From: Anaerolineae bacterium
Lineage (GTDB): Bacteria > Chloroflexota > Anaerolineae > SpSt-600
Direction: 5' to 3'
Assembly: GCA_025062375.1 (NCBI GenBank)
Contig: JANXAG010000001.1
Span: 114,922 to 178,137, forward strand
Length of the DNA stretch: 63,216 nucleotides
Each line of letters opens with the position of its first letter. Positions within the stretch are counted from its first letter, which is position 1. A program made the position numbers and the translations under genes. Shown here piece after piece: positions 33,894 through 52,461 of the stretch. The notes beneath the pieces were generated by a model. The model saw nothing but the letters and a program-made list of their open reading frames with translations, was not told the origin of the DNA and ran no database searches.

Positions 33894-33908
33894 GGTGGGC
33901 CTCCTGAG

Positions 33909-34421: not shown

Positions 34422-34891
34422 GGGCAGCCTCCTTTCTCAGGATTAGAGGAACTCCCACGGCGCCTCAGTAAATAAAGGGAACCCACGATTATGAAGATCA
34501 TGAAGGACAGAACGGCAAGCTCAAGCAGGATGGCCCGGAACATCTCAAAGTTGCCCTCTAAGATGAGGCGAGATTGTTCAGCTGTGATGATGAGGATGCG
34601 CCGTATCGCCGCAATGAGCCCGATTATCAGAAAGGGCTCACAGGATAGTTCATGCTGGCGGACCGATATGCCCACCGTGTGAAGGATTTCCACCAGCATA
34701 AGGACTACCAGCAGAGAATCCAGTATGTGGAGCACCTCTTTGAATAGAGCCCCTTCTTCTAAAGCCTTGATGAAGTGCTGCACCGCTGAGAGGATGACTG
34801 CTACAGCTGTTGCTGCCAGTAAAAGGCCTACAGCAATATAAATTAAATTTTCGGTAAGTTTCCACGCATCATCCAGAGTTGGCTTTTTCAC
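34418..34891 (-). CDS. PsiE-like membrane protein
   Basis: The 157-residue integral membrane protein has four predicted helices (around residues 13-42, 52-72, 82-100 and 120-142). The pattern VLMLVEILHTVGISVRQHEL followed by PFLIIGLIAAIRRILI resembles the phosphate-starvation-inducible PsiE family. Its function is unknown. It overlaps both neighbours by four bases (ATGA), so it is translated with the thiolase/CoA-transferase operon, though a metabolic role there is not evident. Confidence 0.7.
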   Translation of the reverse strand: MKKPTLDDAWKLTENLIYIAVGLLLAATAVAVILSAVQHFIKALEEGALFKEVLHILDSLLVVLMLVEILHTVGISVRQHELSCEPFLIIGLIAAIRRILIITAEQSRLILEGNFEMFRAILLELAVLSFMIFIIVGSLYLLRRRGSSSNPEKGGCP

Positions 34892-35739: not shown

Positions 35740-36911
35740 ATTCCCAGGATTACCACTGTGGATACCTGCATAAGATCGCCCCAGGCCTGGGCGAGGCCGC
35801 GTTTGGGGTTGCCTGGAACTTGGCGCTTGCCAGCTTCTCCTCTGAGCTGCCAGAAAATTTCGGCCACTTTCATGAGACCAGCAGCAGCTATCGGATTGCC
35901 TACACCCAGAAGCCCACCTGAAGGGGAGCTGGGAAGCCAGTCGGGCTCGCTTTCTTTATCCCGATCAAAGCGCCCCCTGGCAGCATCTTCGGGAGCTTTC
36001 CCTTTCTCAGCCAGGAGAAGCCCTTCCAGATGATGGAGTTCTTTGTAGTCAAAGGGGTCGTAAGGTTCCACTATGTGGATTTCCTTCCGGGGCTCCTTTA
36101 TCCCGGCCATTTTGTAGGCCATCCTGGCCGCTTCTTCCACGTAAACGGGGTAAGAAAGATCGCGGTTCGTCCAGTAAGTAGTATCCAGGCACCAGCCCAC
36201 TCCTTCGATCCACACCGGCTTATTGGTCACCCGGCGGGCCACATGTTCAGCGGCGAGGACAACGGCCACTGCCCCATCGGAAATAGGGCTTACATCCAGA
36301 CGCTGGACTGGCCAGGCTAATACTTCGGACTCAAGGACATCCTTAACGGTTATGTTGGGATCACCCAAAAGGGCGCAGGGGTGATCAACGGCGTTGCGTC
36401 GGTTTTTGACGGTTATATAGGCAATGTCTTCTTTCCTGAGGCCATAACGGGTCATGTAGGCATTCATCTCCAGGGCGAAGATCCAGAGCAGGTTGGGGCC
36501 GAGAGGCCTTTCGGTGGTGTGGTCAAAGATGGTGATGAAAGCTCCTTGAGGGTGAGGCATGCAGGATGACATCTTCTCTTCGCACACTACAAGGCAGGTA
36601 TCAAAGACACCGGAAGCCACGTGGTACCAGCCCTGAATTACGGCGAAGACCCCGGTGCTTCCGCCCACAAAGCAGCGGAAGTAAGGTTTGCCCCAGGCTC
36701 CTGCTCCGTCCGAAAGGTATTCAGCTTTCATGTGGACGGCATCAAAAGCGTCGGGAGCGGAGCCCAATACCACGCAGTCAATGTCGTCCAGGGTCATTTC
36801 ACAGGATTCCAGGGCCATGGAGGCGGCTTCCCAGGCCAGCTCTTTGGACGTTTCCTGGGCTCTACGGACGAATTTGGTCATGCCTGCGCCAACGATAGCT
36901 ACCCTTGGCAT
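35736..36911 (-). CDS. Thiolase-fold protein (SCP-x/Ltp2-like), copy 1, catalytic residues altered
   Basis: Thiolase-superfamily protein of 391 residues, start chosen at ATG 36911 (MPRVAIVGAGMTKF) after GGGGAGG; an upstream in-frame ATG adds 22 unconserved residues. The nucleophilic Cys expected before the SG of the active-site loop is not at the usual place: the loop reads RC80FVGGSTG. The GHP motif near the C-terminus is GNP (SPSGGLLGVGNPIAAAG), so the catalytic His is Asn. Ltp2-type retro-aldolases of the same family also lack thiolase residues and work with DUF35 proteins (established for steroid catabolism). A carbon-carbon lyase is therefore as likely as a thiolase. Confidence 0.82.
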   Translation of the reverse strand: MPRVAIVGAGMTKFVRRAQETSKELAWEAASMALESCEMTLDDIDCVVLGSAPDAFDAVHMKAEYLSDGAGAWGKPYFRCFVGGSTGVFAVIQGWYHVASGVFDTCLVVCEEKMSSCMPHPQGAFITIFDHTTERPLGPNLLWIFALEMNAYMTRYGLRKEDIAYITVKNRRNAVDHPCALLGDPNITVKDVLESEVLAWPVQRLDVSPISDGAVAVVLAAEHVARRVTNKPVWIEGVGWCLDTTYWTNRDLSYPVYVEEAARMAYKMAGIKEPRKEIHIVEPYDPFDYKELHHLEGLLLAEKGKAPEDAARGRFDRDKESEPDWLPSSPSGGLLGVGNPIAAAGLMKVAEIFWQLRGEAGKRQVPGNPKRGLAQAWGDLMQVSTVVILGI

Positions 36912-36925
36912 TTTTTCCTCCCCTT

Positions 36926-38077
36926 TTATATGCTGAGAATTACAACCGCCCCACTGGTGGTGGGGATGCCACGCCATCCGAAAGCGAGGCCCACTTGAGC
37001 GTTGGGCACCTGGCGCTTCCCAGCTTCTCCTCGGAGCTGGAAGACCACTTCCATGACTCTTACTAGGCCTGAGGCCTCCAGCATGCGACCCATCCCCAGG
37101 TTACCTCCGGAGGGGTTTACGGGGAATTCCCCTTCCAGGCAGGTGTAGCCTTCTTCCGTGAGGATTCCTGCTTCTCCTGGGGCGCAGAGCCCTAAAGCTT
37201 CCATGTGCTGAAGTTCCTTGTAGGCGAAGGTGTCGTCAATTTCCGCAAAATCTATCTCATGCCGGGGGTTGCGGATCCCAGCCATTTCGTAGGCCATCTT
37301 TGCTGCTTTTGTGGCGTAATCGGCTCTTGCCCATGAACGGGATTCAAGCCAGAAGGTGTCGTTGGCCCAGCCTATGCCCCGAATCCATACCGGCTTGTCG
37401 GAGAGGGCCCGGGCCACATCTCCAGAAGCCAGAACCATTACGATAGCTCCATCGGCATGGCGGCTTATTTCCAGAGAGGTAAGCGGTTCAGCGACCGGTT
37501 CGGAGGCGAGGACGTCCTCAGGGGTAAGCTTGGCGGGATAGGAGGCTAAAGGGTTAAGGAGAGCATTCCGACGGTTTTTAGCTACTACCATAGCGCATTG
37601 CCTGTGAGTTGTGCCAGTTTCGGCAAGGTAGCGGCGCATCTCCATCCCTGCAATGGCATAGGGGTGGAAGGCCAGAGGCCTGTTAAATACAGGATCCAGA
37701 GCAAAAGCCAGGACGTGGGAATAGCAGAGGATATTGGAAGCTTTGCTGTGGGATTCCACCACTACCACATCAAATTGTCCAGTTTTTATCTGGAGAAAAG
37801 CAGCTGCAAGGCCGTGGATTCCTTCGCCGCAAACGGTTTGAACGGGCCTGAGAACTCCTCCCAGTTGGTCCGGGACATATTCGTTGGATATGCTGGTGCC
37901 TTCGTGGAAATCTTCGGCAACGGACACAAAGCTCTGGACGTCTTTGCGGGGGTTTATACCGGCTTCTTCGTAGGCCTTTGTGGCGGCTTCAAACATGAGT
38001 TCCTTAAAGGAGAGCTCGGGGGTCAAAGGGCGGAAACCTGCGTAACCTACTCCTATTATGGCCACTTCTCTGCTCAT
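36926..38077 (-). CDS. Thiolase-fold protein (SCP-x/Ltp2-like), copy 2, catalytic His missing
   Basis: The 383-residue paralogue of the next gene starts at ATG 38077 (MSREVAIIGVGYAGFRPL) with GAGGAG upstream. It retains a Cys at the nucleophile position (QTVC83GEGIHG), but the GHP histidine motif is GRM (NPSGGNLGMGRMLEASG). It is first in the thiolase/DUF35/CoA-transferase operon. It may form heteromers with the second copy. Whether either is a thiolase or an aldolase cannot be settled by reading. Confidence 0.82.
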   Translation of the reverse strand: MSREVAIIGVGYAGFRPLTPELSFKELMFEAATKAYEEAGINPRKDVQSFVSVAEDFHEGTSISNEYVPDQLGGVLRPVQTVCGEGIHGLAAAFLQIKTGQFDVVVVESHSKASNILCYSHVLAFALDPVFNRPLAFHPYAIAGMEMRRYLAETGTTHRQCAMVVAKNRRNALLNPLASYPAKLTPEDVLASEPVAEPLTSLEISRHADGAIVMVLASGDVARALSDKPVWIRGIGWANDTFWLESRSWARADYATKAAKMAYEMAGIRNPRHEIDFAEIDDTFAYKELQHMEALGLCAPGEAGILTEEGYTCLEGEFPVNPSGGNLGMGRMLEASGLVRVMEVVFQLRGEAGKRQVPNAQVGLAFGWRGIPTTSGAVVILSI

Positions 38078-38201
38078 GGCAATTCTCCTCATTGAGAAGT
38101 TTAAAGTTATTTTACTCAATTTGCGGAAGGAGGCAAATTTTTTCGGTTCTCGCGGCAGAAATTGCGGCTGCTCTCAAAGCTGGTGACAAACTTTTATGCT
38201 T
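38078..38201 (-). promoter_or_regulatory. Spacer with weak promoter candidate for the thiolase operon
   Basis: On the minus strand a TTGCCT, 16-base spacer, TAAAAT arrangement lies upstream of the first thiolase gene. It is AT-richer than its surroundings. The match is modest, and read-through from the ABC operon upstream is possible. Confidence 0.35.
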
Positions 38202-38915
38202 TCAGAAGGTGTTCAGAATTATCTCTTCCGGACGACGTTCCCCGACGATGCGTCCGTCTCGCAGCAGCAGGATTCGGTCTGCGCAGCGAGCCACCCATGG
38301 ATTGTGAGTGACGAGGATGATGGTCATTCCCAGGTCGCGGTTCAACTCCCGCATGAGAGCGACAATTTCAGCTCCACTTTGAGAGTCCAGGTTGCCCGTT
38401 GGCTCATCAGCCAGGAGGATGACCGGGCGATTTGCCAGAGCACGCGCTATAGCCACCCGCTGTCGTTCTCCACCCGACATCTGGCTGGGCAGGTGGTTCA
38501 TCCGATCGCGCAGGCCCACCCGTTCCAGCAATTCTTCCGCTCGCCTTCGGCGCTCCCGGCGGCTGATGGGCTGGCCTATCATGGGCACTTCCACGTTTTC
38601 CCGCGCCGTCAATGTGGGAATAAGGTTGTGCAGCTGGAAGACAAAACCCACCGTCCGAGCCCGGAAGGTGTCCAGGTCCCGAATCCGGGCCAGATCCTGC
38701 CCGTTCACCCAAACTTCCCCGCTTGTGGGCCTGTCCAGTGCACCGAGGATGTGGAGCAGCGTGGATTTTCCGGAGCCGGAAGGCCCCATGATGGCGACGA
38801 ATTCCCCACGGCCCACGGTCATCGTCAGCCCATTTAGCGCCCGGACTTCCACACCCTCTCTGTAAACTTTCACCAAGTCCCGCACGACGACAATGGGTTC
38901 TCTTTCCACAGCCAT
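38202..38915 (-). CDS. ABC transporter ATP-binding protein, MacB/LolD type
   Basis: The 237-residue ATPase has Walker [10 protein letters not shown], the ABC signature [15 protein letters not shown], Walker [15 protein letters not shown] and the H-loop VTHN. It belongs to the LolD/MacB group, which drives FtsX-type permeases without transporting through the membrane in the usual way. It is last in a three-gene unit with the adaptor and permease, eight bases from the adaptor. Confidence 0.94.
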
Positions 38916-38923
38916 CGCTCCCT

Positions 38924-40030
38924 TTATTCTTCAATGTCCACAAACGCTGTCATTCCCCAGCGCAGGGCTGGGTCCATCTCTTCCAAGGCGATGATGGCGG
39001 TGTAGCGCACCCCGCCAGCCCCTGGCTCCGCCATCGGGTAGATGCGGATAATCCGACCTTTAAACACCCGGCCCGGCACTGCATCAAAAGTAACGGTTAC
39101 TTTCTGGCCCACTTGCGCTCGCACTACGTCCACTTCGTCCAGATCGGTAGTTTCCACCTGTAGCGTGTTCAGGTCTCCCAGTGTCACCAGCGGTTGGCCA
39201 GGCACGACCAGTTCTCCAGCCCGGACATGAACCCGGCCAATAGTTCCAGCAAAGGGCGCGCGGATTTCACAGCGGCTCAGGGTCAGCCGCGCTGCCTCCA
39301 GGGCAGCACGGGCACGGATTACCTCAGCTTCGGCTACGGCGATTTCTTCCGGCCTTGGCCCTGCTTCCAGCCGTGCCAGCCGGACTCTGGCTTGCTGCAG
39401 TTGAGCCCGGGCCGCCGCTATATCAGCAGCTGGCGGGTTCAGGAGCACATCCAGCCGGGCTCTGGCGATGTTGTAAGCTCCGGTAGCCTGCTCCAGCTGC
39501 AGCGCCTCTGGCCGGAGCCCAATGGCAGGATCCCACTTCACCCGGTCGTAGGCTTCCTGGGCCCGCCGCAGGTTGACCTCTGCCTGGGCGAGTTCCGCCC
39601 GTGCCACCGCTACCTGCACCGGATCGGGTTGGAGCAATTTCTGGAGTGCAGCCTGGGCCGCTGCCACTGCCGCTCTCGCCTCTTCCAACTCTTCCGGACG
39701 CGGACCAGCTTTCAGGGCGTCCAAGCGGGCCTGTGCGGCGGCTAAAGCTGCCTCCGCCTGCTGCACCGCCAGCTGAGCATCGGCGGGGTCCAGCTGGATC
39801 AGCACATCTCCAGCTTTAACCTGGTCGCCCGGCACCACACGGACTTCCAGCACCACTCCACCTGTTTGGGCGCTCAGGGTAGCCCACACTGCCGGAACTA
39901 CTTTGCCGCTGACGGAAATGACCGACCGGGCTTCCTCCACCGTTTCCGGGGGTGGCGTTGGCGCAGCCTGACCACAAGCCGAAAGGGGTAAAACAGCAAG
40001 GACCATAGCGATTACAAGCACCCTACGCAT
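38924..40030 (-). CDS. Lipoprotein membrane-fusion adaptor (HlyD/MacA family)
   Basis: The 368-residue adaptor has a lipoprotein signal (VLPLSACGQ; lipidation at Cys19). It shows split biotinyl-lipoyl halves (GVVLEVRVVPGDQVKAGDVL and IRAPFAGTIGRVHVRAGELV) around a long Ala/Glu/Arg-rich helical hairpin (about residues 85-245), then a beta-barrel domain (TVTFDAVPGRVFKGRIIRI). Such adaptors couple MacB-like pumps to export. Lipid anchoring fits a cell with a single membrane or an outward-facing inner-membrane adaptor. Confidence 0.9.
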   Translation of the reverse strand: MRRVLVIAMVLAVLPLSACGQAAPTPPPETVEEARSVISVSGKVVPAVWATLSAQTGGVVLEVRVVPGDQVKAGDVLIQLDPADAQLAVQQAEAALAAAQARLDALKAGPRPEELEEARAAVAAAQAALQKLLQPDPVQVAVARAELAQAEVNLRRAQEAYDRVKWDPAIGLRPEALQLEQATGAYNIARARLDVLLNPPAADIAAARAQLQQARVRLARLEAGPRPEEIAVAEAEVIRARAALEAARLTLSRCEIRAPFAGTIGRVHVRAGELVVPGQPLVTLGDLNTLQVETTDLDEVDVVRAQVGQKVTVTFDAVPGRVFKGRIIRIYPMAEPGAGGVRYTAIIALEEMDPALRWGMTAFVDIEE

Positions 40031-40057
40031 TATCAGCCTCCTCAGGAGAGCTCAGGT

Positions 40058-42292
40058 TCATTCGTACCTAAGGGCTTCCACCGGATGCATTCGGGTGGCC
40101 CGCCAGGCCGGGTAAAGGCCACCAAGCACGCCCGCCACCAGCGAGACCACCGCTGCCTGCCCGAAGAGTCCCGGCCTGAAAACTGGAGCGAAAGCCTGAG
40201 CGATCCCCGGCATCCGGGTTGCTCCCACCGCCAGAAGGACGCCCAGCAGGGTTCCCCACAGGCCTCCCAGAATTCCCAGCAGGAGCGATTCCTGCAAAAT
40301 CACTCTCAGTACCTGACGGGGCCGCCAGCCCAGCGCCCGCAGAACGCCTATTTCCCGCGTTCGCTCCAACACGCTCATCAGCATCGTGTTGAGCATCCCC
40401 ACAGCGCCGATGAAGACCGCCAGGAAAGAAATCTGGTTCACCGCCTGCCGCATTATCCGCAGGTCGCTAACCACCCGCTCGGCCTCGGTGGTGAGGGCGA
40501 AATCAACCCCTGGAAACGCAGCCTTCAACCGGTCTCGCACCAGTGCTGCCTCTTGAGGTCGCTTCAGCTTGATGTAGTACATCTGGACCTGTCGCGGTTT
40601 GCCTGCAAGCATCTGGGCCTCCCGCAAGCTGACAACTGCACCTATGTCCTCATAGGCGACGCCCGTTTCGTAAATGCCGACGACGCGAAAGGTGGTCTCC
40701 TGGAGGCGGAGCGTGTCTCCCACCTTAAGGCCCATGTGCTCCGCCGCGCGCCGCCCAACCAGTATCTGGCGCGGTGCTGTGAGGGGACTACCTTCCACAA
40801 TACGGAAGTGGCCCATAACAAAACTACGCGGGTGGTAGCCGGAGAGGATGAACATGGGCATCTTTTCTATGCTGAGCACGACAAAAATACCTCCCGCTAC
40901 TGCCTCCACTTCGGGCATTGCAGCGATGCGTGACCCTACCCGCTCGTCTATTGCGCTGAAATCGGCATCTACATTGGCTTGCATGGCGATCAGGTCCACC
41001 TGACTATCCCGCCAAATCTGGGAGAACATCACGTAAGTGCCATCGGCTATGCTGCCCAGAGCTACCATAGCAGCGATACCGATGGCGATGCCCAGCGCAG
41101 TCAGTGAGGTACGGGTCCGGCGCCGGAGGAGGTTGCGGAATGGCATCCCGCCAGGCAGTGGGCGGGAGATACGGCCGCTGACTCCGCCTTCGTAGCGGAG
41201 TGCCTCCACGGGCAGGAGCCGGCTGGCCCACCACGCCGGATACGCTCCACCTACCAATCCCAGCACTCCTACCGTGACCAGTGCCCGGAGGAAAAGATCC
41301 GGTGAGAATTGAGTGCCCCAGGAGCCAATCCAGCCTCCAGTCCGGCGGACCAGAAGGGCCGCTGCCACTCCCAGGAGGATGCCCACGATTCCTCCCAGCA
41401 AGGAAAGTGCAAGCGATTCCTGCAGCACCATCGTTACCACTTGACGACGTCGCCAGCCAAGTGCTCGCAGGACTCCGATCTCCGTGGTCCGCTCAAAGAC
41501 GGACATAAAGAGGGTGTTGGTCATCCCCACTCCGCCAATGAGGATTGCCAGCCCGGCTACCGCCATCGCCATTGCATCTATCACGCGCACTATGTATTCC
41601 TGGTCAATGAACCCTACTGTGGGGATCACCGAGAGGTCCGGAAATTGACGGGCCATCCGGGCGCGGAACGAATCGGCCACTCCAGGATCACGGAGTTTGA
41701 CGTAGAGGAGGGTCACCCGGCGCGGTTGAACGGTCAGAGTCTGAGCATCTTCCAGAGAGATAACAGCTGCTGTGTCTTCAAAGCTGCTACCTGTCTCATA
41801 AAGACCGGTAACGCGGAACGGAACCTGGCCCACGTAAAGGAGATCGCCCACCTTTCGGCGGAGCCTTTCGGCTGCCTGGCGGCCCAGCAGGAGAGGTCTC
41901 CCCCGCCGCACCGAGGTTTGGTCCAGCCGTTCTCCCTCCAGGATGCGGAACCGGCGGATGGCGAACCCTTGAGGGTCTAACCCAAGGCAGAAAAGATACG
42001 AGCCATCATCCAGAATGGCGCTGGCGAAGACCATGCCATCCACTGCGGCGACCTCAGGCATAGCCCGCACTTCATCGGCGATGGCCTGGTCTATGCTGCC
42101 CATGATGGCCGTGAAAGCCCCTGCCTGCGTAACGACGAAGTCGGCCTCAGAGCCACGCACTATGGAGGCGAGGCCCTCCCGAAAGGCACTTGCCACCGCC
42201 CCCAAGGCGACGATGGCCGCCACTCCGATGGCGATCCCGAAAAGGGTGAGAATTGTCCGCCCTTTGCGGCGAAACAGGTTCCTCAGCACCAT
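40058..42292 (-). CDS. Duplicated FtsX-type ABC permease (two MacB-like units in one chain)
   Basis: The 744-residue membrane protein contains two head-to-tail MacB-like units. Each has an N-terminal helix (TILTLFGIAIGVAAIVALGA; TSLTALGIAIGIAAMVALGS), a periplasmic MacB_PCD domain and an FtsX core of three helices (GGVGMTNTLFMSVFERTTEI; GAVGMLNTMLMSVLERTREI). A normal permease has one unit and dimerises, so this chain supplies the whole dimer. With the adaptor and ATPase it forms a complete exporter. Substrate is unknown. Confidence 0.9.
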   Translation of the reverse strand: MVLRNLFRRKGRTILTLFGIAIGVAAIVALGAVASAFREGLASIVRGSEADFVVTQAGAFTAIMGSIDQAIADEVRAMPEVAAVDGMVFASAILDDGSYLFCLGLDPQGFAIRRFRILEGERLDQTSVRRGRPLLLGRQAAERLRRKVGDLLYVGQVPFRVTGLYETGSSFEDTAAVISLEDAQTLTVQPRRVTLLYVKLRDPGVADSFRARMARQFPDLSVIPTVGFIDQEYIVRVIDAMAMAVAGLAILIGGVGMTNTLFMSVFERTTEIGVLRALGWRRRQVVTMVLQESLALSLLGGIVGILLGVAAALLVRRTGGWIGSWGTQFSPDLFLRALVTVGVLGLVGGAYPAWWASRLLPVEALRYEGGVSGRISRPLPGGMPFRNLLRRRTRTSLTALGIAIGIAAMVALGSIADGTYVMFSQIWRDSQVDLIAMQANVDADFSAIDERVGSRIAAMPEVEAVAGGIFVVLSIEKMPMFILSGYHPRSFVMGHFRIVEGSPLTAPRQILVGRRAAEHMGLKVGDTLRLQETTFRVVGIYETGVAYEDIGAVVSLREAQMLAGKPRQVQMYYIKLKRPQEAALVRDRLKAAFPGVDFALTTEAERVVSDLRIMRQAVNQISFLAVFIGAVGMLNTMLMSVLERTREIGVLRALGWRPRQVLRVILQESLLLGILGGLWGTLLGVLLAVGATRMPGIAQAFAPVFRPGLFGQAAVVSLVAGVLGGLYPAWRATRMHPVEALRYE

Positions 42293-42382: not shown

Positions 42383-45300
42383 TCAGGCCATCATCTTCCC
42401 CAAATTCTGCAGAGTCCGGACGACATCCCGGGGCAATGTGACGGGTTTTCGGCCCAGCATGTAGCAACTAACGATTAGGTGAGCTGCGCGTTCCACTATC
42501 TCCACCAGGTTGCAGGCCTGACGCAGGCTGCTGGCTGCCACCACAACCCCGTGGTTCTGGAGGAGGCAAACTGGACTGCGTTCCATTGCTTTCACCACTG
42601 CCTGAGCCAGCTCTTTGGTCCCTGGCATGATAAAGGGAACCACTGGCACTTCCTTCAGGAAGGCGGCTTCGGTGGTGACGGGCAGGAAAGGAAGCCTGCT
42701 TAGAGCCAGGATAGTTGCATAAGGCGCATGGGCATGGACAATGGCCTGGGCCTCCGGCTGCGCCCGATAAATGGCGGTGTGCATCGGCCACTCCGAGGAA
42801 GGAGCCAGAGCGCCAGGCTCCAAAGCCTGACCCTCAAATGTAATCCGCACGATGTGTTCGGGCCGCAAGGTGCCCTTGTGAAGCTGGGATGGGGTTATCC
42901 AGCATTCTTCCCGCCCCTCTATCCGGACGCTCACGTTTCCTCCGGTGGCGGTGATCAATCCCAGCTGGTAAAGTTCACTGACTGCCTGAACGATTTCCTC
43001 GCGCAGGTCTTCCCGCACCGGTGCCGGAGCAGGAACCACCGGGGTCGGAGCGGCACCAGCAAAATCTACTCCGCCCATCTCCTCCCGTGCCTGATTGTAA
43101 AGCCGAACCAGGTCTCCCTGGAGGCGCTGCATCCCCATGGCCAGCCGCACATCCCCGCTGAAGGCGAGTTTGCCGCTCATCGCTGCTTTCGTGCCGCTGA
43201 GCCGGCCGCTGAAGATTCCGTCCAGCGTTTCTGCTGAAGCCTTCATGCGCACCTCAGCAGGCTCAGGTGGTGCCCCGAGCCCGGCAATAACCCGTCCTTC
43301 CCGAAAACCGATGTGGAATTCCAGTCCCAGATCGGTCACAACGTAATGGCTCATGACCCGTTGCCTGGCGGCAAAGTGGTTTACCTTAGGATCTTCTTTC
43401 ACCAGTTCACAGAAACGATGGAGGATTCGCTCCATCCGGGCACGTATATCCTGAGGGCCAGTTGCCTCTTTCATGAGGGATTCCTCCTCCCGTAAAATTT
43501 GCTGTTCCTGCTGGAGGTCGCTGACAGCTGGGCCAGGGCGCTCTGCTCGCTCCCTCAAAAGCTTTTCATCAATCGGCCTGCGAGGGCCTGTCCAGGAAAA
43601 ACTTTCCAGTGTTTGAGGGTTCAGGATGTGCAGTGGCCGTTCCCCACGGAGTAGGCGATCCAGGTCTTCCACCACCATGCGCCCCTGGTGAATGGCTACC
43701 TCTTCTGTGTTTCCACCAATGTGAGGTGTAGCGATGACGTTGGGCATAAGGAGCAGCGGGTCATCGGAGGCCGGGGGTTCTACGGAGAAGACATCCACTG
43801 CAGCACCAGCCAGGTGGCCGCTCTGAAGGGCTTCAACGAGGGCCTTTTCATCCACCAGAGCCGCGCGGGCGGTGTTGATCAGAAAGGCCCCCCGCTTCAT
43901 GCGAGCCAGTTCCTCCCGACCGATCATCCCGCGCGTTTCAGGGGTAACTGCTGCATGCAGGCTGATAATATCGCTCTCGGCCAGGAGGCGTTCCAGAGAG
44001 ACCAGCTCGGCATCGTATAGGGCAGCGTCCTCAGGCCCGATGTATGGGTCATAAACCAGCAGGCGAACGCCGAAAGGTACCAGCCTGCGGGCCACTTCCC
44101 GCCCAATCGCTCCGAAACCCACCAGACCAACAGTCTTACCCCAAAGTTCACGTCCCAGGAACAGTTCATGGGCCTGGCCCATCCTTGCCATGTCTCCAGC
44201 TTCTCCTCCCGGCTGCCGCAGAAAACGATCAGCCAGTATTAGGCGGCGCAGGAGAGCTATCATGAAAGCCACGGTCAAATCGGCAACGGCATGGGCATTA
44301 CGGCCAGGGGCATAGAGCACCGGTATGCCCAGGGCTGTGCATGCATCCAAATCCACGTTTACAGCTCGCCCCCGGCATGAAACTATCACACGCAGTTCAG
44401 GCAGACGCTGCAACGCATCCAGATCCACCACATCCACTTCTGTGATAAAAACATGCACGCCCTGGAGGGCTTCCACCAGCTCATCGCCAGTGAGCACTCT
44501 AAGGGAATCGCGATAACAAGCATATTCAACATCTCCCAGGAGGCGCAATTGATTCAGGCTTTCCTCGTCCATCTGGGCGGTAACCAGTATCTTTGGTCGG
44601 AATTGAGCCCGACGGGGCCGTGACGGGGGTTCCATCCCCATGATTGTTTGCACTATGCGGTTAGCAGCGTGATCGCGGAATTCGCACTGTAATTCGCAGA
44701 GCTTCTGCCACTCCGAATAAAGGGAAGAATAGAATTCTGCAGTCCCCTTGTTCGGCCGCACCAGAGCGGTATGCACCAGCCGGGATATGCCATCGATCAG
44801 GCTGGAGAAAACCCCCGCACCAGCTCCAGCACAGATGGCTGCACCAAGCGCAGCACTTTCGGGAGTTTCAGAACGGTATACCGGGACCCCTAAAACATCG
44901 GCAACGAGCTGGGTCCAGAAGGAACTGCGGGTCATCCCGCCGCTCATACTCACTGAGGAAGGCGCTCCCATAACCCTGGATATTTGTTCCAGATTGGCAC
45001 GCAGGGCAAAAGCCATTCCTTCCAGAACGGCACGGCATACCAGGGGGCGGACGGATTTTCCCTCACCCGTGAAGTGGCAGAGGGTCAGGCTTCCTGCAGG
45101 AAAGGCCATAGCCCGGGCATTGAAAACGTGAGCCCCGAAGGTGGAACACAACCCACCGGCGCCAGGTGATGCCCGAGACGCTTCGGCCAGCAGGCGCACG
45201 TGGGCGAAAGGTGAATCGGGGAACAGCACCCGTGCAAACCATTCCAATGCCCTTCCAAGCTGTCCGGCATTGCTTTCCAGCACCCAGCGCCCCGGCAACA

Positions 45301-46156
45301 CGTGTAAACCGGTCCAGAGGCGACCGTCAGGGTCCAGGAGCGGGCGGTCAATAATCCCCTGGATTGGGGCGGTGGTCCCTGCTACAATTCCGATCTCGCC
45401 TGGGGTAATAGTTCCCATCCCCAGCAGAGCACACTGAGTATCCGCTCCACCCACGGCTACGGGGATGCCGGGAACCAGCCCCAGCTCCCCTGCAACTGAA
45501 GCTGTCAATTTGCCGAGGAAAGTTCCAGAGGGGACAACTGGAGGGAGCACTGAAAGCGGCAGGCCAAGTTCTTCCAGCAGGTCCGCAGCCCACTCCCTTC
45601 GGTGGAGGTCGAAAAGCATGGATTCTCCTGCGTTTGAGAAGTCAGTAGCTATCTCCCCGCAGAGGCGATAGGCCACCCAGTCGCTGATCGTCAGGGCCAC
45701 AGAGCCCTGGAGCCAGTCGGGGTGGTGGCGAGCCAGCCACTGGAGGCGGGAAGCCAGGAAAATCGGGAGAGGCCAGCGGCCGGTGCGGGAATAGAAATTT
45801 TCGCCCTTTTCCGCAGCCAGATCCGTGCTCTCAGCGGCGGCGCGAGCATCCAGATTAGGGACAGCTAACAGAACCCGGCCGTTTCGCACGAGCACAAGGG
45901 TGTGGCGCATGGAGGTAACAGCGATCCCCAGGACATCGGTCGGGGAAATATCTGCTTTCTGGATAACCTCTGCCACAGTTCTGGCAAGGAGAGCCCAGTT
46001 CTCATCGGCTTCAAAATCCCAGGCCCATCCCCCTTCAGGAGAGGGAGGATGCTGCCACAGCCGGTGGGAAGAAAAAATTTTGCCCGTCTCCACATCCACC
46101 AGAAGGGCACGCACAGAACCTGTTCCCGCATCAATCCCCAGCAAGTAACCGCCCAT
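42383..46156 (-). CDS. Four-domain fusion: FGGY kinase / 2-hydroxyacid dehydrogenase / SCP2 / class II aldolase
   Basis: One 1257-residue chain. Residues 1-490: FGGY carbohydrate kinase (GIDAGTGSVRALL; GGADTQCALLGMG; AGTTAPIQG; SGGMTRSSFWTQ). Residues 520-850: NAD-dependent D-2-hydroxyacid dehydrogenase with GFGAIG at 681-686 and the catalytic His in TPHIGGN at 812. Residues 905-1030: SCP2 sterol-carrier domain (LGLEFHIGFREGRVIAGLG). After a Pro/Ala linker, residues 1050-1257: class II aldolase/adducin with GGNVSVR, zinc ligands in VHAHAP (1141, 1143) and NHG at 1201-1203. The ATG at 46156 follows AAGGAGGAGG; an upstream in-frame start adds 14 unconserved residues. It may channel a sugar-acid or polyol through oxidation, phosphorylation and aldol cleavage. 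It follows the epimerase gene by 11 bases. Confidence 0.92.
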   Translation of the reverse strand: MGGYLLGIDAGTGSVRALLVDVETGKIFSSHRLWQHPPSPEGGWAWDFEADENWALLARTVAEVIQKADISPTDVLGIAVTSMRHTLVLVRNGRVLLAVPNLDARAAAESTDLAAEKGENFYSRTGRWPLPIFLASRLQWLARHHPDWLQGSVALTISDWVAYRLCGEIATDFSNAGESMLFDLHRREWAADLLEELGLPLSVLPPVVPSGTFLGKLTASVAGELGLVPGIPVAVGGADTQCALLGMGTITPGEIGIVAGTTAPIQGIIDRPLLDPDGRLWTGLHVLPGRWVLESNAGQLGRALEWFARVLFPDSPFAHVRLLAEASRASPGAGGLCSTFGAHVFNARAMAFPAGSLTLCHFTGEGKSVRPLVCRAVLEGMAFALRANLEQISRVMGAPSSVSMSGGMTRSSFWTQLVADVLGVPVYRSETPESAALGAAICAGAGAGVFSSLIDGISRLVHTALVRPNKGTAEFYSSLYSEWQKLCELQCEFRDHAANRIVQTIMGMEPPSRPRRAQFRPKILVTAQMDEESLNQLRLLGDVEYACYRDSLRVLTGDELVEALQGVHVFITEVDVVDLDALQRLPELRVIVSCRGRAVNVDLDACTALGIPVLYAPGRNAHAVADLTVAFMIALLRRLILADRFLRQPGGEAGDMARMGQAHELFLGRELWGKTVGLVGFGAIGREVARRLVPFGVRLLVYDPYIGPEDAALYDAELVSLERLLAESDIISLHAAVTPETRGMIGREELARMKRGAFLINTARAALVDEKALVEALQSGHLAGAAVDVFSVEPPASDDPLLLMPNVIATPHIGGNTEEVAIHQGRMVVEDLDRLLRGERPLHILNPQTLESFSWTGPRRPIDEKLLRERAERPGPAVSDLQQEQQILREEESLMKEATGPQDIRARMERILHRFCELVKEDPKVNHFAARQRVMSHYVVTDLGLEFHIGFREGRVIAGLGAPPEPAEVRMKASAETLDGIFSGRLSGTKAAMSGKLAFSGDVRLAMGMQRLQGDLVRLYNQAREEMGGVDFAGAAPTPVVPAPAPVREDLREEIVQAVSELYQLGLITATGGNVSVRIEGREECWITPSQLHKGTLRPEHIVRITFEGQALEPGALAPSSEWPMHTAIYRAQPEAQAIVHAHAPYATILALSRLPFLPVTTEAAFLKEVPVVPFIMPGTKELAQAVVKAMERSPVCLLQNHGVVVAASSLRQACNLVEIVERAAHLIVSCYMLGRKPVTLPRDVVRTLQNLGKMMA

Positions 46157-46167
46157 CTTCCTCCTCC

Positions 46168-47157
46168 TTATGGTGCATAGCCATTTGCTCTGTACCATTC
46201 AACAGCTTTACGCACCGCCTCCCGAGCAGGGCCGTAGGTGTAGCCTAATTCGCGCATAGCTTTGCTACAATCAAACCATTCATAGCGGCGAGAGAGGCGC
46301 ACCTTTTCCGGTGTGGCAGTGGGAACGGAGCGCAGGCCCAGCTTGGTAAGAGCGACATCTATATAAGCCCAGAGCATTGCAACCCAGTGGGGAATGCGCC
46401 ACCGTACCGGGGGTCGGCCAGAAACTTCGGCCAGTAAGTCTAAGAACTGCTTCAAGGTCATATTCTCGCCTCCCAAGATGTAACACTCCCCTACCCGTCC
46501 CCGTTCAGCTGCCAGAATATGCCCCTTTGCCACATCTTCTACATCCACAATGTTCAGCCCGGTGTCTACATAACCGAACATCCGACCGTTCAAAAAATCC
46601 ACGATGATTTGCCCGGTAGGAGTAGGCTTGTGATCACCAGGGCCAACCGGAGCAGTGGGGTTCACAATGACCACTGGGACTCCCTCTCGGGCGAGCTCCA
46701 AAGCTACTTGCTGCCCCAGAAATTTTGAGCGCTGGTAGTAAGTGACTTTATCTTCCAGGGTGCTGGGGGTATTTTCGTTTGCAGGGGTGCGATCTGGGTT
46801 AGTTCCCAGAGCTGCTATAGAGCTGGTGTGCACGATACGTTGGACACCCATTTCGCGGGCAACTTCCAGGACCAGACGAGTGCCTTCCACATTGACACGG
46901 TAGAAATCTTCCCAGCGATAACCCCAGAATGAATACAGCGCAGCCAGATGAAAAACCCAATCGCAACCTTCTATCCCTCGCCGCAAGCTATTTATATCTT
47001 CCAAGCTTCCTTCCACCTTCTCTACTGGCAGGCCATCAAGCTGACGAGTATTGGCTCCAGGGCGAACAAGAGCTTTCACCTGATGCCCTGATTCTATAAG
47101 TTTTCGAACGACTGCTCCCCCGATAAAGCCTGTCCCACCAGTTACAAAGGCCTTCAT
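46168..47157 (-). CDS. NAD-dependent epimerase/dehydratase, HpnA-like
   Basis: The 329-residue short-chain dehydrogenase has the nucleotide motif TGGTGFIGGAVV at the N-terminus, VFHLAALYSFWG and the YxxxK pair in YYQRSK. The layout resembles hopanoid-associated sugar epimerase HpnA and dihydroflavonol reductase-like proteins. The ATG at 47157 follows AAGGAGG. It overlaps the M28 peptidase gene by four bases. No hopanoid cyclase is present, so a hopanoid role is not supported; NAD(P)-linked reduction or epimerisation of a sugar or ketone is more general. Confidence 0.85.
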   Translation of the reverse strand: MKAFVTGGTGFIGGAVVRKLIESGHQVKALVRPGANTRQLDGLPVEKVEGSLEDINSLRRGIEGCDWVFHLAALYSFWGYRWEDFYRVNVEGTRLVLEVAREMGVQRIVHTSSIAALGTNPDRTPANENTPSTLEDKVTYYQRSKFLGQQVALELAREGVPVVIVNPTAPVGPGDHKPTPTGQIIVDFLNGRMFGYVDTGLNIVDVEDVAKGHILAAERGRVGECYILGGENMTLKQFLDLLAEVSGRPPVRWRIPHWVAMLWAYIDVALTKLGLRSVPTATPEKVRLSRRYEWFDCSKAMRELGYTYGPAREAVRKAVEWYRANGYAP

Positions 47158-48389
47158 GGTTCCTCCTTCCCCAATAAATGGGCGTCGCACTTGCTATCCA
47201 GTGTGTTTAGGATTTCCATGACGAACTCTACCGCTTGAGCCATAACCTTCCCGGAAACAGTATCCACTGTATCATCCGCCCGATGCCAGTAAGGTAAAGA
47301 GCTCGTTGCTGGGTCGTAACCGGCAAGGCAAATGGCTCGGTAGCCTCCATTACGCAGTATGCGCACTTCGTCCTCAATGATCATCGCAGCTGGCCGAACT
47401 TTAAGCGCAGGCCGAACGGCCGCCACTTGCTCCACCAGCGCCAGCAATGCGGGGTCAGGCCGATAAGGCCAGCACAAGCCCTGACGGGTGAGATAAACAA
47501 GTTCGCCACTCCCCACCCCCTCCAGGTCTATAAAAATAGCCTCACGCATCAGAGGCCTGTACCGACGGAGAAAGGTTTTCAACCCCCGATGATCAGTCTC
47601 TTCAGCTCCAGTAAAAACAAGCCAGACCTCCGTCCAGCGGAGAGGCTGGAGGGCAAAGCGCGCAGCAATCTCCAGCGCTACTGCTACACCGCTGGCATTG
47701 TCGTGAGCACCAGGCGAGAAAGGAGCACGCCAGTCCCACCACAAGGTAGCGATGCTGCCCATGATGTATCCAGCCGGTAGCAATGAAAGCCACCAAGCCC
47801 ACACCGCACCGCCGAATAACACCCCCAGCAAGTACAAAAAGCCCACAGAAAGCAGCATGAAGAACGTCAGCCAAGTTAATGGTTCAAGAAAGCGCACCTT
47901 CGCTGAAGACCAAGCAAGACGGCAGCGGTTAGTATCCAGGTGGGCCAGAATTACAGCGCGCTGACGAAGGCTATCTGCTGGTGCGATACGTGAGATCACG
48001 TTCTGGCTGGTAACATGAGGCAATAGTGGCCGGAGCAAGCTATCAGAATGGCAGATGACCTGCCAGAACATAAAAGGAGTGCTAAGGCTCAGCACTACAG
48101 CCAACCACTGCATGGCCAGGCTGCCTAACGGATAAATACTAACAGCCACCAAAGTCACCAGGCCCACCGCCATCGGAAACGCATTCTGATCAGCAACAGC
48201 CCGGAATGCCATACGCTCCACGGGTAACCCCATATCAGCCAGACACCGAGCTACATAACTGGCTGCAGCAGATTCACCCTCTGTACCTGTTCCGCGCGGG
48301 CCAATTTCAGCCGCCAAGACCCGCACGTGCTTAAGCAATCGTTCTATGGAGCTATTGCATGGCGTATCAGTTCCGCACCCATGCTCCAT
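47154..48389 (-). CDS. M28-family zinc peptidase with inserted membrane segments
   Basis: The 411-residue protein has all five M28 zinc ligands in order: AHLDTN (His), GAHDNASG (Asp), TGAEETD (Glu), DLEGVGSG (Asp) and YWHRADDT (His). Two strongly hydrophobic blocks interrupt it, about residues 70-112 (before the first ligand) and 170-222 (between first and second), giving an estimated four membrane spans. The domain is probably held at the membrane. The ATG at 48389 overlaps the aminotransferase gene by 46 bases; a later TTG start is possible. Aminopeptidase is the likely activity. Confidence 0.85.
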   Translation of the reverse strand: MEHGCGTDTPCNSSIERLLKHVRVLAAEIGPRGTGTEGESAAASYVARCLADMGLPVERMAFRAVADQNAFPMAVGLVTLVAVSIYPLGSLAMQWLAVVLSLSTPFMFWQVICHSDSLLRPLLPHVTSQNVISRIAPADSLRQRAVILAHLDTNRCRLAWSSAKVRFLEPLTWLTFFMLLSVGFLYLLGVLFGGAVWAWWLSLLPAGYIMGSIATLWWDWRAPFSPGAHDNASGVAVALEIAARFALQPLRWTEVWLVFTGAEETDHRGLKTFLRRYRPLMREAIFIDLEGVGSGELVYLTRQGLCWPYRPDPALLALVEQVAAVRPALKVRPAAMIIEDEVRILRNGGYRAICLAGYDPATSSLPYWHRADDTVDTVSGKVMAQAVEFVMEILNTLDSKCDAHLLGKEEP

Positions 48390-49723
48390 ACACGCCCACC
48401 AACACGCTCGGCTTCAGCCATCACCGCCTCAAAAGCGGAAAGGATCATTTGGATTTCATCCTCGCCGATGATGAGAGGCGGTAACAGTTTGATAATATTG
48501 ACACCTGGCCCACCAACCTGCACCAATATGCGGTGATCACGCATTAATGCCATCACTATTAACTGGGCAAACAAACCCTTTTCTGCTTTCTCCATTGCTG
48601 TCCAGGCGGTCCGCAAAGCTAAAGAGCGCGGGGGACAGAATTCAATACCGATCATCAACCCTTTGCCGCGCACATCAGCGATCATCTCAAAACGTTCCTG
48701 GAGGCCTTTTAGCCCTTTAAGCAACTTTTCGCCCATCACCGCCGCCCGTTCCACCAGCCGTTCTTGATCCATCACGTAAAGAGTAACAAGACCAGCCGCC
48801 ATCGCCAGCTCATTCTGTCCAAAGGTTGTTGAATGCACCTGACAGCGTTTCAAATCGCTGAAAATTTTTTCATGAATACTCCGGCGCATGATGGTGGCAC
48901 TGACCGGGATATAACCTCCGCCAAGCGATTTGCCCAGAGTGACGATGTCCGGTTCCAGCGACCAATGTTCGCAAGCCAGGAAACGGCCAGTGCGCCCCAT
49001 TCCTACCTGAACTTCGTCACAAATGAAAAGTGTTCCGTATTTCCGACAAAGACGTTGAGCTTCCGGCAAGTAGTCATCCTGAGGGATATACACTCCCTTA
49101 CCCTGGATTGGCTCAACGATAAAGCCAGCCACGTTACCCTTCCGGAGTTCTCTCTCAAGGGCTTCCAGATCGTTCATCGGCACCATATCAAAGCCAGGCA
49201 TCAGCGGCTCAAAGCCTCTGCGGAAAGCTTCATTGCCATTGATGGAAAGAGCTCCCAGGGTTAAGCCATGGAAAGCATGGTCCAGATAGAGGATACGGGG
49301 GCGCCCCGTGGCGGCCCTGGCGAACTTGATGGCTGTCTCCACTGCTTCGGCCCCGGAATTAGCAAAGAAAACAGCATCCAGGCCCGGTGGCATCCGCTGC
49401 ACGAGTGCTTCGGCCAGAAGCCCAGCCAGTAGCGGGCAATCCATCTTCACCAGATTAGGCCGGTCCAGATCTAGAATTTCGTAAAGGGCCTGCTTAACCA
49501 GAGGATGATTGCGACCAAGGTTATACACACTGTAGCCAGAAAGAAGATCCAGGTAACGCTCCCCCCGATCGTTCCAGAGATAGGCCCCCTCTCCACGCAC
49601 CCACGTTTGATTAAAGCCAATGATTTCCAAAGCGCGAACCAGCTTAGGATTTATATACCGCTGATGGAGGATAGTCCGATCACGTTGACGCTCCTTAATC
49701 AATTGAGCCAGTGAAAAAGCCAT
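48344..49723 (-). CDS. Class III PLP aminotransferase
   Basis: The 459-residue aspartate aminotransferase-fold enzyme is of the ornithine/putrescine/4-aminobutyrate group. ANSGAEAVETAIK, DHAFHGLTLGAL, ICDEVQVGMGRTG and K265 in TLGKSLGGG (Schiff base) are all present. Donors may be diamines or omega-amino acids; the product would be an aldehyde that the adjacent aldehyde:ferredoxin oxidoreductase could oxidise. It lies three bases downstream of that gene. Class III enzymes also include HpnO, but that assignment is not supported here. Confidence 0.9.
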   Translation of the reverse strand: MAFSLAQLIKERQRDRTILHQRYINPKLVRALEIIGFNQTWVRGEGAYLWNDRGERYLDLLSGYSVYNLGRNHPLVKQALYEILDLDRPNLVKMDCPLLAGLLAEALVQRMPPGLDAVFFANSGAEAVETAIKFARAATGRPRILYLDHAFHGLTLGALSINGNEAFRRGFEPLMPGFDMVPMNDLEALERELRKGNVAGFIVEPIQGKGVYIPQDDYLPEAQRLCRKYGTLFICDEVQVGMGRTGRFLACEHWSLEPDIVTLGKSLGGGYIPVSATIMRRSIHEKIFSDLKRCQVHSTTFGQNELAMAAGLVTLYVMDQERLVERAAVMGEKLLKGLKGLQERFEMIADVRGKGLMIGIEFCPPRSLALRTAWTAMEKAEKGLFAQLIVMALMRDHRILVQVGGPGVNIIKLLPPLIIGEDEIQMILSAFEAVMAEAERVGGRVWSMGAELIRHAIAP

Positions 49724-49725
49724 GA

Positions 49726-51684
49726 CTACCTCCTCTCTAAAGCAAAAGACTCAAGACCCAGCTCCGCTATAGTCTCCGGGAGAGGCATTCCGGTCTCGGG
49801 GTCAATGCCGAGGGTGGAGAAATAACCTGAAGCCATCGCTTCAATGTCTATGGTGACCCCGGCTACAGGCCCCACCTCCTGAGGGGGATCCCCAAGCTCA
49901 CGCCCGGGCAGAGGGAACCGCGCTGGCAGGCCCTCCCGCGCATTGAAACTATGACGGAGCACCTGGATTCGCCACCCAATCCGCAAGAACTCAGCTTCAT
50001 CCAGGTCCCAACCCGTGGCAGCTCTCACCCAGTCCAGAACGGGCGGATTGCCCATCTGCAAGGCAAAATGACACAGACCAAGGGAGTCGTAGGCCCTCAG
50101 AAAAGAGATGATGACCGCAAAAGCAGGCCCTTTGGCAGAATAATCGTATCGCCCTCCCAGTCGCACGCCTTTAAGCGCAAAGTATGGAGCATAAGCTTTG
50201 ATATCGGTGATACCGGATTGGGTGGAAGTGTGTCGCCCTGGGGCCGGATCCACATAGTAGCCCAGCGCTACGCCCGGCTCGTATATACCCCGGTGCATGG
50301 GCAATTCCTGACCACCAGCGTGCATGGCTGCTTCTTGAGCTTCTGGCCCCAGTTTCTGAGCAGCTCGCCAGACCCCATCAGCCAGCCAGTTTCCCAGACC
50401 CGGCTCTCGCCTGGCAATCCGCTTTACTAGCTCTACAATGACCTCCCCATCGCCCCAGCGGAGTGGAAGCTCCTCTGCCAATTCCGGAGGCAACCAACCC
50501 CGTTCCCGTGCTTCTATAGCGAAGGCCACGACTACCCCCGTAGAGATGGTATCCAGTCCGGCGCGGTTGCATATATCCGTGCACCGCATCACTGCCTCCA
50601 AGTCGTCGTTCAAAAGCAGTGGGCCAAAAGCAGCCAGAGTCTCATATTCCGGCCTGTGACCTATCTGACCATCAGGGAAACGGGCGAGAGCCCCACACGC
50701 AACCGGACAGGAATGGCACCCGTAAGCCCGGATGTTATAGCGAATTGCCGCTTCATCGCTCAGCTTACTGGACTTAGACAGAGGGAAATCCCGGAAGCCA
50801 ATCCCGAGCCAGTTGCGCACCGGGGTATCTCCCAGTTCAACCAGAGGTGCAAGCCCAACAGTAGTTCCATAGCGCCGATACGAATCAACGATGAACTGGG
50901 TTGGCCCCCCGCTTGCACGGATGCGCAGACGACGCATAACTGGCAGTGAACGCAAGAGAAAAGCAGGGATCAGGGAAACCCAGCGGGAAGGACGGCGACG
51001 GAAAATCCGAAGGTAAGAAGAGCTGGCTGCTCTGAAAGCCCCCGGATCAGCCAGGGGTGGGCGCTCCTTCCCCCGAACCGCAATAGCTTTCAGGCGCTTG
51101 GCCCCCATGACAGCACCCAATCCGCACCGGGCAGCAAGGCGCCCTCCATCGTTGACAATGCCCGAAATTAGGGAAAGAAGTTCCCCCGCCGGGCCTATAC
51201 AGGCTACCCTGGCATCCTGAGCAAAAGCCCGGCGAATGGCTTCCTCAGTCTGGACTGAATCCAGACCCCACAAATCAGAAGCATCACGCAGCTCCGCACG
51301 CCTGCCGTCTATGACCAGGTAAACTGGGCGCGGAGATGTTCCGGTTATAAACAAACCATCGTATCCGGCACCCCGAAGGGCTGGGCCAAAATTTCCCCCG
51401 CAATTGGCCTCTCCCCATCCTCCCGTCAAGGGCGAGCGGGCCACCACCATGAAGCGCCCGCTGAAAGGTGCACCGCTGCCGGTGAGCAGCCCCGGGATAA
51501 AGCCCAAAATATTTCCTGACCCCAGAGGCTCAGCATTTGGAGGCATCCGTTCGTAAAGCACAGCAACGCCCAATCCATATCCGCCCAGGAAACGGCGATA
51601 AATGGATTCGGGCAGTTCCTCCTCCCAAATTTTGCCTTCGCTCAAATCCACCCAGAGAATTCTGCCCCAGAATCCATAGCTCAT
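49726..51684 (-). CDS. Tungsten-containing aldehyde:ferredoxin oxidoreductase
   Basis: Oxidises aldehydes to acids with ferredoxin reduction using a tungsto-bispterin and one [4Fe-4S] cluster. The protein has GRFMVVARSPLTGG and the cluster ligands CHSCPVAC around residues 323-330 and C538 in LGLCHF, in the AOR order, and GGRLAARCGLGAVMG contacts pterin. ATG 51684 is preferred (AAAGG eight bases upstream); a GTG at 51693 would add three residues. It is the first structural gene after the GntR regulator, with 16 bases between them. Confidence 0.93.
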   Translation of the reverse strand: MSYGFWGRILWVDLSEGKIWEEELPESIYRRFLGGYGLGVAVLYERMPPNAEPLGSGNILGFIPGLLTGSGAPFSGRFMVVARSPLTGGWGEANCGGNFGPALRGAGYDGLFITGTSPRPVYLVIDGRRAELRDASDLWGLDSVQTEEAIRRAFAQDARVACIGPAGELLSLISGIVNDGGRLAARCGLGAVMGAKRLKAIAVRGKERPPLADPGAFRAASSSYLRIFRRRPSRWVSLIPAFLLRSLPVMRRLRIRASGGPTQFIVDSYRRYGTTVGLAPLVELGDTPVRNWLGIGFRDFPLSKSSKLSDEAAIRYNIRAYGCHSCPVACGALARFPDGQIGHRPEYETLAAFGPLLLNDDLEAVMRCTDICNRAGLDTISTGVVVAFAIEARERGWLPPELAEELPLRWGDGEVIVELVKRIARREPGLGNWLADGVWRAAQKLGPEAQEAAMHAGGQELPMHRGIYEPGVALGYYVDPAPGRHTSTQSGITDIKAYAPYFALKGVRLGGRYDYSAKGPAFAVIISFLRAYDSLGLCHFALQMGNPPVLDWVRAATGWDLDEAEFLRIGWRIQVLRHSFNAREGLPARFPLPGRELGDPPQEVGPVAGVTIDIEAMASGYFSTLGIDPETGMPLPETIAELGLESFALERR

Positions 51685-51699
51685 GCTGGACACCTTTCT

Positions 51700-52461
51700 T
51701 CAAAAACTGCAGAGTTGTTCCCGGGTGCAGCGAAGCGTGGCTCTGAAACGATCTCCACGGTGAACAGTCCGCCCGAAAACGAGGGGGACATCCCGGCTGG
51801 AGAAAGCAATCCGAACGCTCAGAACCACCGGTGTGCCCACGCGGATTTTAAGCTCAGCGGCCTCGTAAGGGCCGGCGGTGGAAAGCTCTATGGTATCAAT
51901 TGCATAAGCTGGGGCCATAGAGAATTCCTCCTCCAGAACCTGATACAGGCTGCGGCCTGTCAGATCCATATCAACGAGCCCGGGGAAAAGGCGATAGGGG
52001 AGGAAAGAGGTTTCCAGAGCCATGGGTTGCTCGTTGGCCAGCCGGAGGCGGATAATGCGGATAACTTTTTCGCCTTCCGCCAGGCGCAAAGCTTCTCTGA
52101 CTTCAGAAGGGGCGGGGATTACCTCTTTGCTGCGAATCTGGGCTCCCGCACTCAAACCGAGGGAACGCATCAGATTCGTGTAGCTTATGATGCTGAGAAA
52201 AGGGCTATCTTGAAAGGTAACTTTGGGAGGAGCGACAAAAGTGCCTTTACCTTTTCGGCGCACCACCAGGCCTTCGTTAGCCAACTGAGCCAAAGCCATC
52301 CGGGCAGTCATGCGCGATACGCCGCACTGCTCACAAATTTGAGTCTCTGAGGGCAAAAGCTCCCCAGGCCTTATGTTCCCATTCAGGATCTCGCGACGAA
52401 GCTGCTCGTAAATCTGGTAGTAAAGCGGAATAGGGGAATTGTGGTTCACATAGAGGTCCAT
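51700..52461 (-). CDS. GntR/HutC-family transcriptional regulator
   Basis: The 253-residue regulator has an N-terminal winged helix (PLYYQIYEQLRREILNGNI, LLPSETQICEQCGVSRMTAR) and a C-terminal UTRA ligand domain (about residues 95-245: VIPAPSEVREALRLAEGEKV, DLTGRSLYQVLEEEF). It heads the AOR operon. A consensus HutC operator lies on its own promoter, so autoregulation and control of the downstream genes are likely. The effector may be a metabolite of the kinase/dehydrogenase/aldolase pathway. Confidence 0.93.
   Translation of the reverse strand: MDLYVNHNSPIPLYYQIYEQLRREILNGNIRPGELLPSETQICEQCGVSRMTARMALAQLANEGLVVRRKGKGTFVAPPKVTFQDSPFLSIISYTNLMRSLGLSAGAQIRSKEVIPAPSEVREALRLAEGEKVIRIIRLRLANEQPMALETSFLPYRLFPGLVDMDLTGRSLYQVLEEEFSMAPAYAIDTIELSTAGPYEAAELKIRVGTPVVLSVRIAFSSRDVPLVFGRTVHRGDRFRATLRCTREQLCSF

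Follow-up and report, generated by a model that had tools for sequence, protein, structure and literature searches.

A fused FGGY kinase, 2-hydroxyacid dehydrogenase, SCP2 domain and class II aldolase in Anaerolineae, and the route that it may serve

What is a lipid-carrier-type domain doing in the middle of an enzyme of sugar chemistry? The question is raised by one gene in a 63,216-nucleotide stretch of an Anaerolineae bacterium (GCA_025062375.1, contig JANXAG010000001.1, positions 114,922 to 178,137; hereafter the window, numbered from its first letter), in which an FGGY carbohydrate kinase, a D-2-hydroxyacid dehydrogenase, an SCP2 domain and a class II aldolase form a single chain. We found that the fusion is a real, inherited assembly. 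Our tentative reading is that it is a multifunctional catabolic enzyme derived from a fused four-gene operon, in which a kinase feeds an aldolase releasing dihydroxyacetone phosphate (DHAP) and then an aldehyde:ferredoxin oxidoreductase (AOR) or aldehyde dehydrogenase (ALDH), together with the dehydrogenase and SCP2 as carrier or tether.

Domain architecture of the fused gene

The open frame runs on the minus strand from 46156 to 42383, 1,257 codons without a stop, and an upstream in-frame ATG would give an alternative length of 1,271 codons.

42383..46156, minus strand: complete fused gene, 1,257 aa, FGGY kinase - D-2-hydroxyacid dehydrogenase - SCP2 - class II aldolase (frame, Pfam, homologues, pN/pS)
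46160..46169, minus strand: its Shine-Dalgarno sequence AAGGAGGAGG, just before the 46156 start (read directly)
44642..46156, minus strand: FGGY carbohydrate kinase domain, residues 1-505 (Pfam, NCBIfam, PDB comparison)
43607..44599, minus strand: D-2-hydroxyacid dehydrogenase domain, residues 520-850, loop CRGxxVNVD (Pfam, homologue alignment)
43472..43474, minus strand: possible internal start, GGAGGAGGAATCCCTC-ATG, Met895, in the dehydrogenase/SCP2 linker
43067..43453, minus strand: SCP2 domain, residues 902-1030 (Pfam, profile matches, structure model)
42383..43021, minus strand: class II (FucA/AraD/adducin-type) aldolase domain, residues 1046-1257 plus stop (Pfam, alignments)

All domains lie above their Pfam cut-offs: FGGY_N (residues 4-246), FGGY_C (257-445), 2-Hacid_dh (525-846) with its NAD domain (629-814), SCP2 (PF02036, 937-1012, 42.6 bits versus a cut-off of 21.3) and Aldolase_II (1053-1227). 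The original prediction, made from the sequence alone, had described four domains with their key motifs in one chain of 1,257 residues, and it was right on both counts, since the frame is unbroken and the motifs that it cited are present. Invariant in 11 complete homologues are D9 and D239 of the kinase, R764, E793 and H812 of the dehydrogenase, and E1122, H1141, H1143 and H1202 of the aldolase.

Family assignments are firm at the level of the superfamily and not below it. The nearest characterised relative of the kinase is the autoinducer-2 kinase LsrK (298 bits, below the NCBIfam family cut-off of 528), which is also the closest solved relative (PDB 5ya0, 257 bits). The dehydrogenase belongs to its superfamily by score (PF02826, 201 bits) and by its Arg/Glu/His catalytic residues, and is below the equivalog cut-off for phosphoglycerate dehydrogenase (SerA; 238 versus 454). 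The aldolase has the HxH...H zinc site, the catalytic glutamate and the phosphate-site residues N1074, S1120 and S1121; in sequence comparison it is nearest to L-fuculose-1-phosphate aldolases, at scores below the equivalog cut-offs (101 versus 400 for TIGR01086, 121 versus 264).

The Met895 site is the strongest combination of Shine-Dalgarno sequence and ATG within the gene and may give a separate SCP2-aldolase of 363 aa. As a conserved internal start it was rejected, because relatives have no start at the same place.

Distribution and history of the fusion

A search for the same architecture, proposed as a check with the original prediction, recovered complete four-domain frames in 11 genomes of about nine families (G000, which is the window's own, G630, G547, G458, G478, G042, G679, G634, G059, G160 and G069). 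They are spread across the Anaerolineae, and G069 belongs to the same phylum outside that class. Other fused copies end at contig edges (G718, G498, G739, G596, G680) or have broken frames (G372, G546). In the fusion of G059 (L057:7713-11852), a partial second SCP2 copy precedes the complete one. The gene is rare at the phylum level: any strong match, split forms counted, was found in 7 of 400 genomes, and the full four-domain profile matched in 3 of 301. A kinase-dehydrogenase fusion without the other parts occurs in an Actinomycetota metagenome record, and another in a Deltaproteobacteria/Myxococcota record whose contig ends before the remainder. Four comparisons gave pN/pS values of 0.17-0.38 across the four domains and higher values in the linkers, with synonymous differences exceeding non-synonymous ones in each domain; purifying selection acts on all four.

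Eight other Anaerolineae encode all four parts, among them SCP2, as separate adjacent genes, in the order SCP2-dehydrogenase-FGGY-aldolase-AOR (G010, G018, G463, G485, G520) or dehydrogenase-SCP2-FGGY-aldolase (G007, G479, G530). Since these genomes hold only one to six SCP2 genes each, the adjacency is unlikely to be due to chance. In G010 every gene of the window's operon is present, with the four parts unfused (GntR-SCP2-dehydrogenase-FGGY-aldolase-AOR-aminotransferase-M28-epimerase), and the five neighbours common to both are 56-76% identical. A single branch sets the fused sequences apart in the trees of the FGGY and aldolase domains (SH-aLRT 92 and 99), and the dehydrogenase tree requires two changes at weak forks. 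This pattern fits a single fusion event, perhaps with later transfer between lineages. The suggestion that the chain carries out several steps of one substrate's route gains support from two independent signals of genomic association, namely the fusion in at least 11 genomes and the adjacent genes in eight. Beside a split operon, L096:4835-6310 encodes a dihydrodipicolinate-synthase-family protein fused to a formaldehyde-activating enzyme (Fae) domain, and similar Fae-fusion genes were found in L095 by clustering.

No description of an enzyme with this domain order, or of this gene set, turned up in the open-access papers that were searched, and to that extent the earlier statement that none was known stands. 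Each domain is known already; the four-domain order with its SCP2 module is an unusual variant of a known kinase/aldolase route.

The operon and its aldehyde-oxidising partners

The genes encoded upstream of the fusion in the same operon are as follows; the gap between the epimerase stop and the start of the fused gene is 11 bp.

46168..47190, minus strand: HpnA-like NAD-dependent epimerase (TIGR03466, 419 bits, cut-off 368)
47154..48389, minus strand: M28-family peptidase-like protein
48344..49723, minus strand: class III aminotransferase (nearest PDB chain 4ppm, PigE; PigE is also the best NCBIfam model, below cut-off)
49726..51693, minus strand: tungsten-type AOR (closest structure Pyrococcus AOR, 1aor)
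51700..52461, minus strand: GntR/UTRA regulator, operon head

An AOR adjoins the module in ten loci, and an ALDH lies directly upstream of the fusion in four; in another branch it takes the place of AOR. Of the 25 loci with the SCP2 part, 13 have one or the other beside the module. Conversely, 13 of the 14 loci with AOR or ALDH carry SCP2, and the fourteenth, a Deltaproteobacteria contig, ends before SCP2 could appear. In the SCP2-less kinase/dehydrogenase/aldolase sets (G053, G503, G359, S. meliloti and Streptomyces) neither AOR nor ALDH was seen. The correlation is weakened by shared ancestry. A Bathyarchaeota contig (L045) has the aldolase alone next to AOR.

A proposed route

DHAP plus an aldehyde is a usual outcome in the class II aldolase superfamily. 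The zinc site, catalytic glutamate and phosphate-site residues of FucA type are kept, so that a phosphorylated substrate is expected, and the FGGY domain could supply its phosphate. In the route that we propose, the kinase would act on a substrate resembling a ketose or polyol and phosphorylate a terminal hydroxyl, the zinc aldolase would split the phosphorylated ketose into DHAP and an aldehyde, and AOR or ALDH would oxidise the aldehyde to an acid; the recurrence of an aldehyde-oxidising partner would be explained because the cleavage releases an aldehyde. The dehydrogenase might interconvert the resulting D-2-hydroxy acid and 2-oxo acid. SCP2 would either hold the hydrophobic part of the substrate or product between active sites, or tether the enzyme, either at a membrane or to further enzymes of the route that bear SCP2.

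Several points weigh against this proposal. The aldehyde-side tyrosine motif HYM of FucA is replaced by TTE, a substitution also evident in alignment with PDB sequences. The reaction may therefore not be that of FucA and could be a decarboxylation or another cleavage. In 12 of the 25 SCP2-bearing loci neither AOR nor ALDH appears within the region read; several of these are short contigs. A fixed docking of SCP2 on the aldolase found no support in a co-model of the two (pTM 0.59, disordered linker with pLDDT below 50).

Among known systems, FucA with L-fuculokinase in ketose-1-phosphate pathways likewise pairs an FGGY kinase with a class II zinc aldolase whose zinc ligands, glutamate and phosphate-site residues are kept, but the window's gene encodes one chain, scores below the cut-offs of the FucA and FucK models, lacks the HYM tyrosine, and adds the dehydrogenase and SCP2. 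In the DHAP shunt (MtnK-MtnA-Ald2), a kinase and a class II aldolase yield DHAP and an aldehyde (PMC12632272). The fused enzyme would share that outcome, with an FGGY kinase instead of MtnK and with dehydrogenase, SCP2 and AOR/ALDH added; MtnK and MtnA were not noticed beside the fused gene, and no genome-wide search for them was made. The sets of S. meliloti and Streptomyces (L063, L064) have distant relatives of the kinase, dehydrogenase and aldolase as neighbours, with a similar dehydrogenase loop motif, but as separate genes at 26-39% identity, without SCP2 and with no adjacent AOR/ALDH seen.

SCP2 as a recurrent module

The SCP2 region is predicted with confidence to have an SCP2 fold (pLDDT 93). 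The model matches PDB structures of SCP2, UbiJ, the C-terminal domains of SdsA1/Pisa1 and eukaryotic SCP2s with a probability of 1.00, and profile matches include the human and yeast proteins. In peroxisomal MFE-2, SCP-x and the alkylsulfatases SdsA1/Pisa1, an SCP2-type domain is likewise carried by an enzyme of one route, but those enzymes act on lipids or alkyl sulfates, whereas here SCP2 sits mid-chain among a sugar kinase, a dehydrogenase and an aldolase.

With a profile of the window's SCP2 subfamily, four-domain, split-operon and ketol-acid-reductoisomerase (KARI)-like-SCP2 proteins scored 116-195 bits, and nothing else among the 298 genomes sampled exceeded 66 bits; one of the lower-scoring matches comes from G001, a genome of the same genus, and is a fragment at the end of its contig. 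The KARI-like enzymes (L137, L138, L139, L140, L141) carry SCP2 at the C terminus, and these domains branch beside the window's subgroup (support 88); therefore the domain has moved between enzymes. Their genes have AOR, sulfatase and glycine dehydrogenase subunits among their neighbours, and one such gene follows an AOR (L137); in G019 a KARI-like-SCP2 gene is adjacent to an AOR. In G007 a KARI-like gene (L157) is preceded by a small separate gene that matches SCP2 weakly and is followed by an HpnA-like gene. No KARI-like homologue was found in the window's own genome at E<=1e-30, and the enzyme is therefore not a general part of the route.

A second lineage of SCP2, separate from that of the window, is fused to beta-glucuronidases, which are encoded downstream of the fusion in G042, G372 and G679 and occur once more in G044. 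Further partners complete the list.

L056:5283-7445, L061:4170-6320, L090:5572-7722 and L144:5169-7340: beta-glucuronidases with C-terminal SCP2 (the translated L056 copy shows the NxK motif as NQKG)
L142:2257-3825: SCP2 with an MR/MLE-family enzyme
L143:2-2209, minus strand: SCP2 with a 2-oxoacid dehydrogenase E1-like chain (named from sequence)
L133:3842-5086, minus strand: SCP2 with an FMN-reductase-like protein (named from sequence)

SCP2 had been called unexpected in sugar-acid metabolism, rightly so, yet in Anaerolineae it is a recurrent module on sugar and sugar-acid enzymes, joined more than once.

Its role may be to bind a hydrophobic moiety or to tether the enzyme, and the co-model would place it on a flexible tether and not at a fixed interface. 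A possible but somewhat doubtful alternative, which concerns this role only and is compatible with either pathway, is that SCP2 here binds no lipid and serves as an assembly or spacing module gathering the enzymes of one pathway. The enzymes to which it is fused are chemically different, the fusions arose in at least two to three separate lineages, and several of the substrates are expected to be polar. However, the core and the Gly-Lys-Leu...Gly-(Asp/Asn)...Ala-Met-x-x-Gln segment are kept in alignment with the lipid-binding human and yeast SCP2s, and the fold resembles that of SCP2s crystallised with lipid-like ligands.

A defined enzyme with such a domain built into sugar chemistry comes with natural controls, as fused, split and SCP2-less versions exist in related genomes. 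If SCP2 tethers, this would be a new use of it as an assembly module; if it carries the substrate, it points to a new route for hydrophobic glycosides or polyol lipids. Either outcome would help function assignment in an abundant and poorly characterised class. We consider rather improbable the fullest version of the latter, an undescribed Anaerolineae route in which SCP2 would be a swappable carrier or tether on successive enzymes (beta-glucuronidase, KARI-like enzyme and kinase-dehydrogenase-aldolase), the polar end of a lipid would, after phosphorylation, be released as DHAP, and AOR or ALDH would oxidise the hydrophobic aldehyde that is left. On paper, such a cut could be made in a hopanoid polyol side chain (C35 to DHAP and a C32 aldehyde); the open-access papers searched contained nothing on bacteriohopanetetrol side-chain breakdown. 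The HpnA-like neighbour and SCP2 together pointed to hopanoid biosynthesis, a reading that was rejected, as squalene-hopene cyclase had no match in the window's genome; relatives gave weak partial matches only.

Alternative readings of the pathway

Set against the DHAP-releasing route, a sugar-acid route is unlikely but deserves weight. The dehydrogenase would act first, oxidising C2 of a sugar acid, the kinase would phosphorylate the oxo acid, and the aldolase-family domain would decarboxylate or cleave it, by analogy with OtnC acting on 3-oxo-tetronate 4-phosphate. The aldolase scores about equally on Ru1P aldolase, FucA and 3-oxo-tetronate-4-phosphate decarboxylase (126, 121 and 120 bits, all below cut-offs), the FucA tyrosine is absent, 2-hydroxyacid dehydrogenases use carboxylated substrates, and the substrate could come from uronate glycosides, given the beta-glucuronidase-SCP2 genes of three loci. 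A decarboxylase, however, would leave the AOR/ALDH partners no aldehyde, and the loci showed no isomerase that would convert a 2-oxo into a 3-oxo group.

It is very unlikely that an LsrK-type kinase, with another enzyme substituting for LsrF, breaks down autoinducer-2 or a related dihydroxypentanedione signal. Among characterised proteins LsrK matches the kinase best, and a regulator of LsrR/DeoR kind adjoins the gene in G160, but the score is so far below the LsrK cut-off that we rejected this identity, the partner genes differ, lsrG/lsrF-like or Lsr transporter genes were not noticed in the loci, and SCP2 and AOR would have no role in that route.

That an assembly artefact or missed stop joins separate genes is almost certainly wrong: the frame is broken within the dehydrogenase in G372 and within SCP2 in G546, and such errors occur in these metagenome-derived genomes, but the 11 complete homologues come from independent assemblies, their catalytic residues are invariant and purifying selection extends over the whole frame. 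Neither a missed stop or frameshift nor absence from relatives, the two findings named beforehand as speaking against the fusion, was encountered, as the frame is intact and relatives carry it. The frame change that splits the G372 gene (L061:7287-11214) is a real break or an assembly error.

Other genes near the fusion

Directly downstream of the fusion, window positions 38202-42292 hold a MacAB/Lol-like ABC exporter set (ATPase, HlyD-like, FtsX-like). Comparable sets were found no more than about 8 kb from the module in G042, G679, G007 and G479, with part of one in G372; this proximity is possibly a coincidence, such transporters being common. Farther on, at 32429-38119, there is a run of thiolase-, DUF35- and CoA-transferase-like genes, which, judged from sequence, is of a kind often met with acyl-CoA metabolism.

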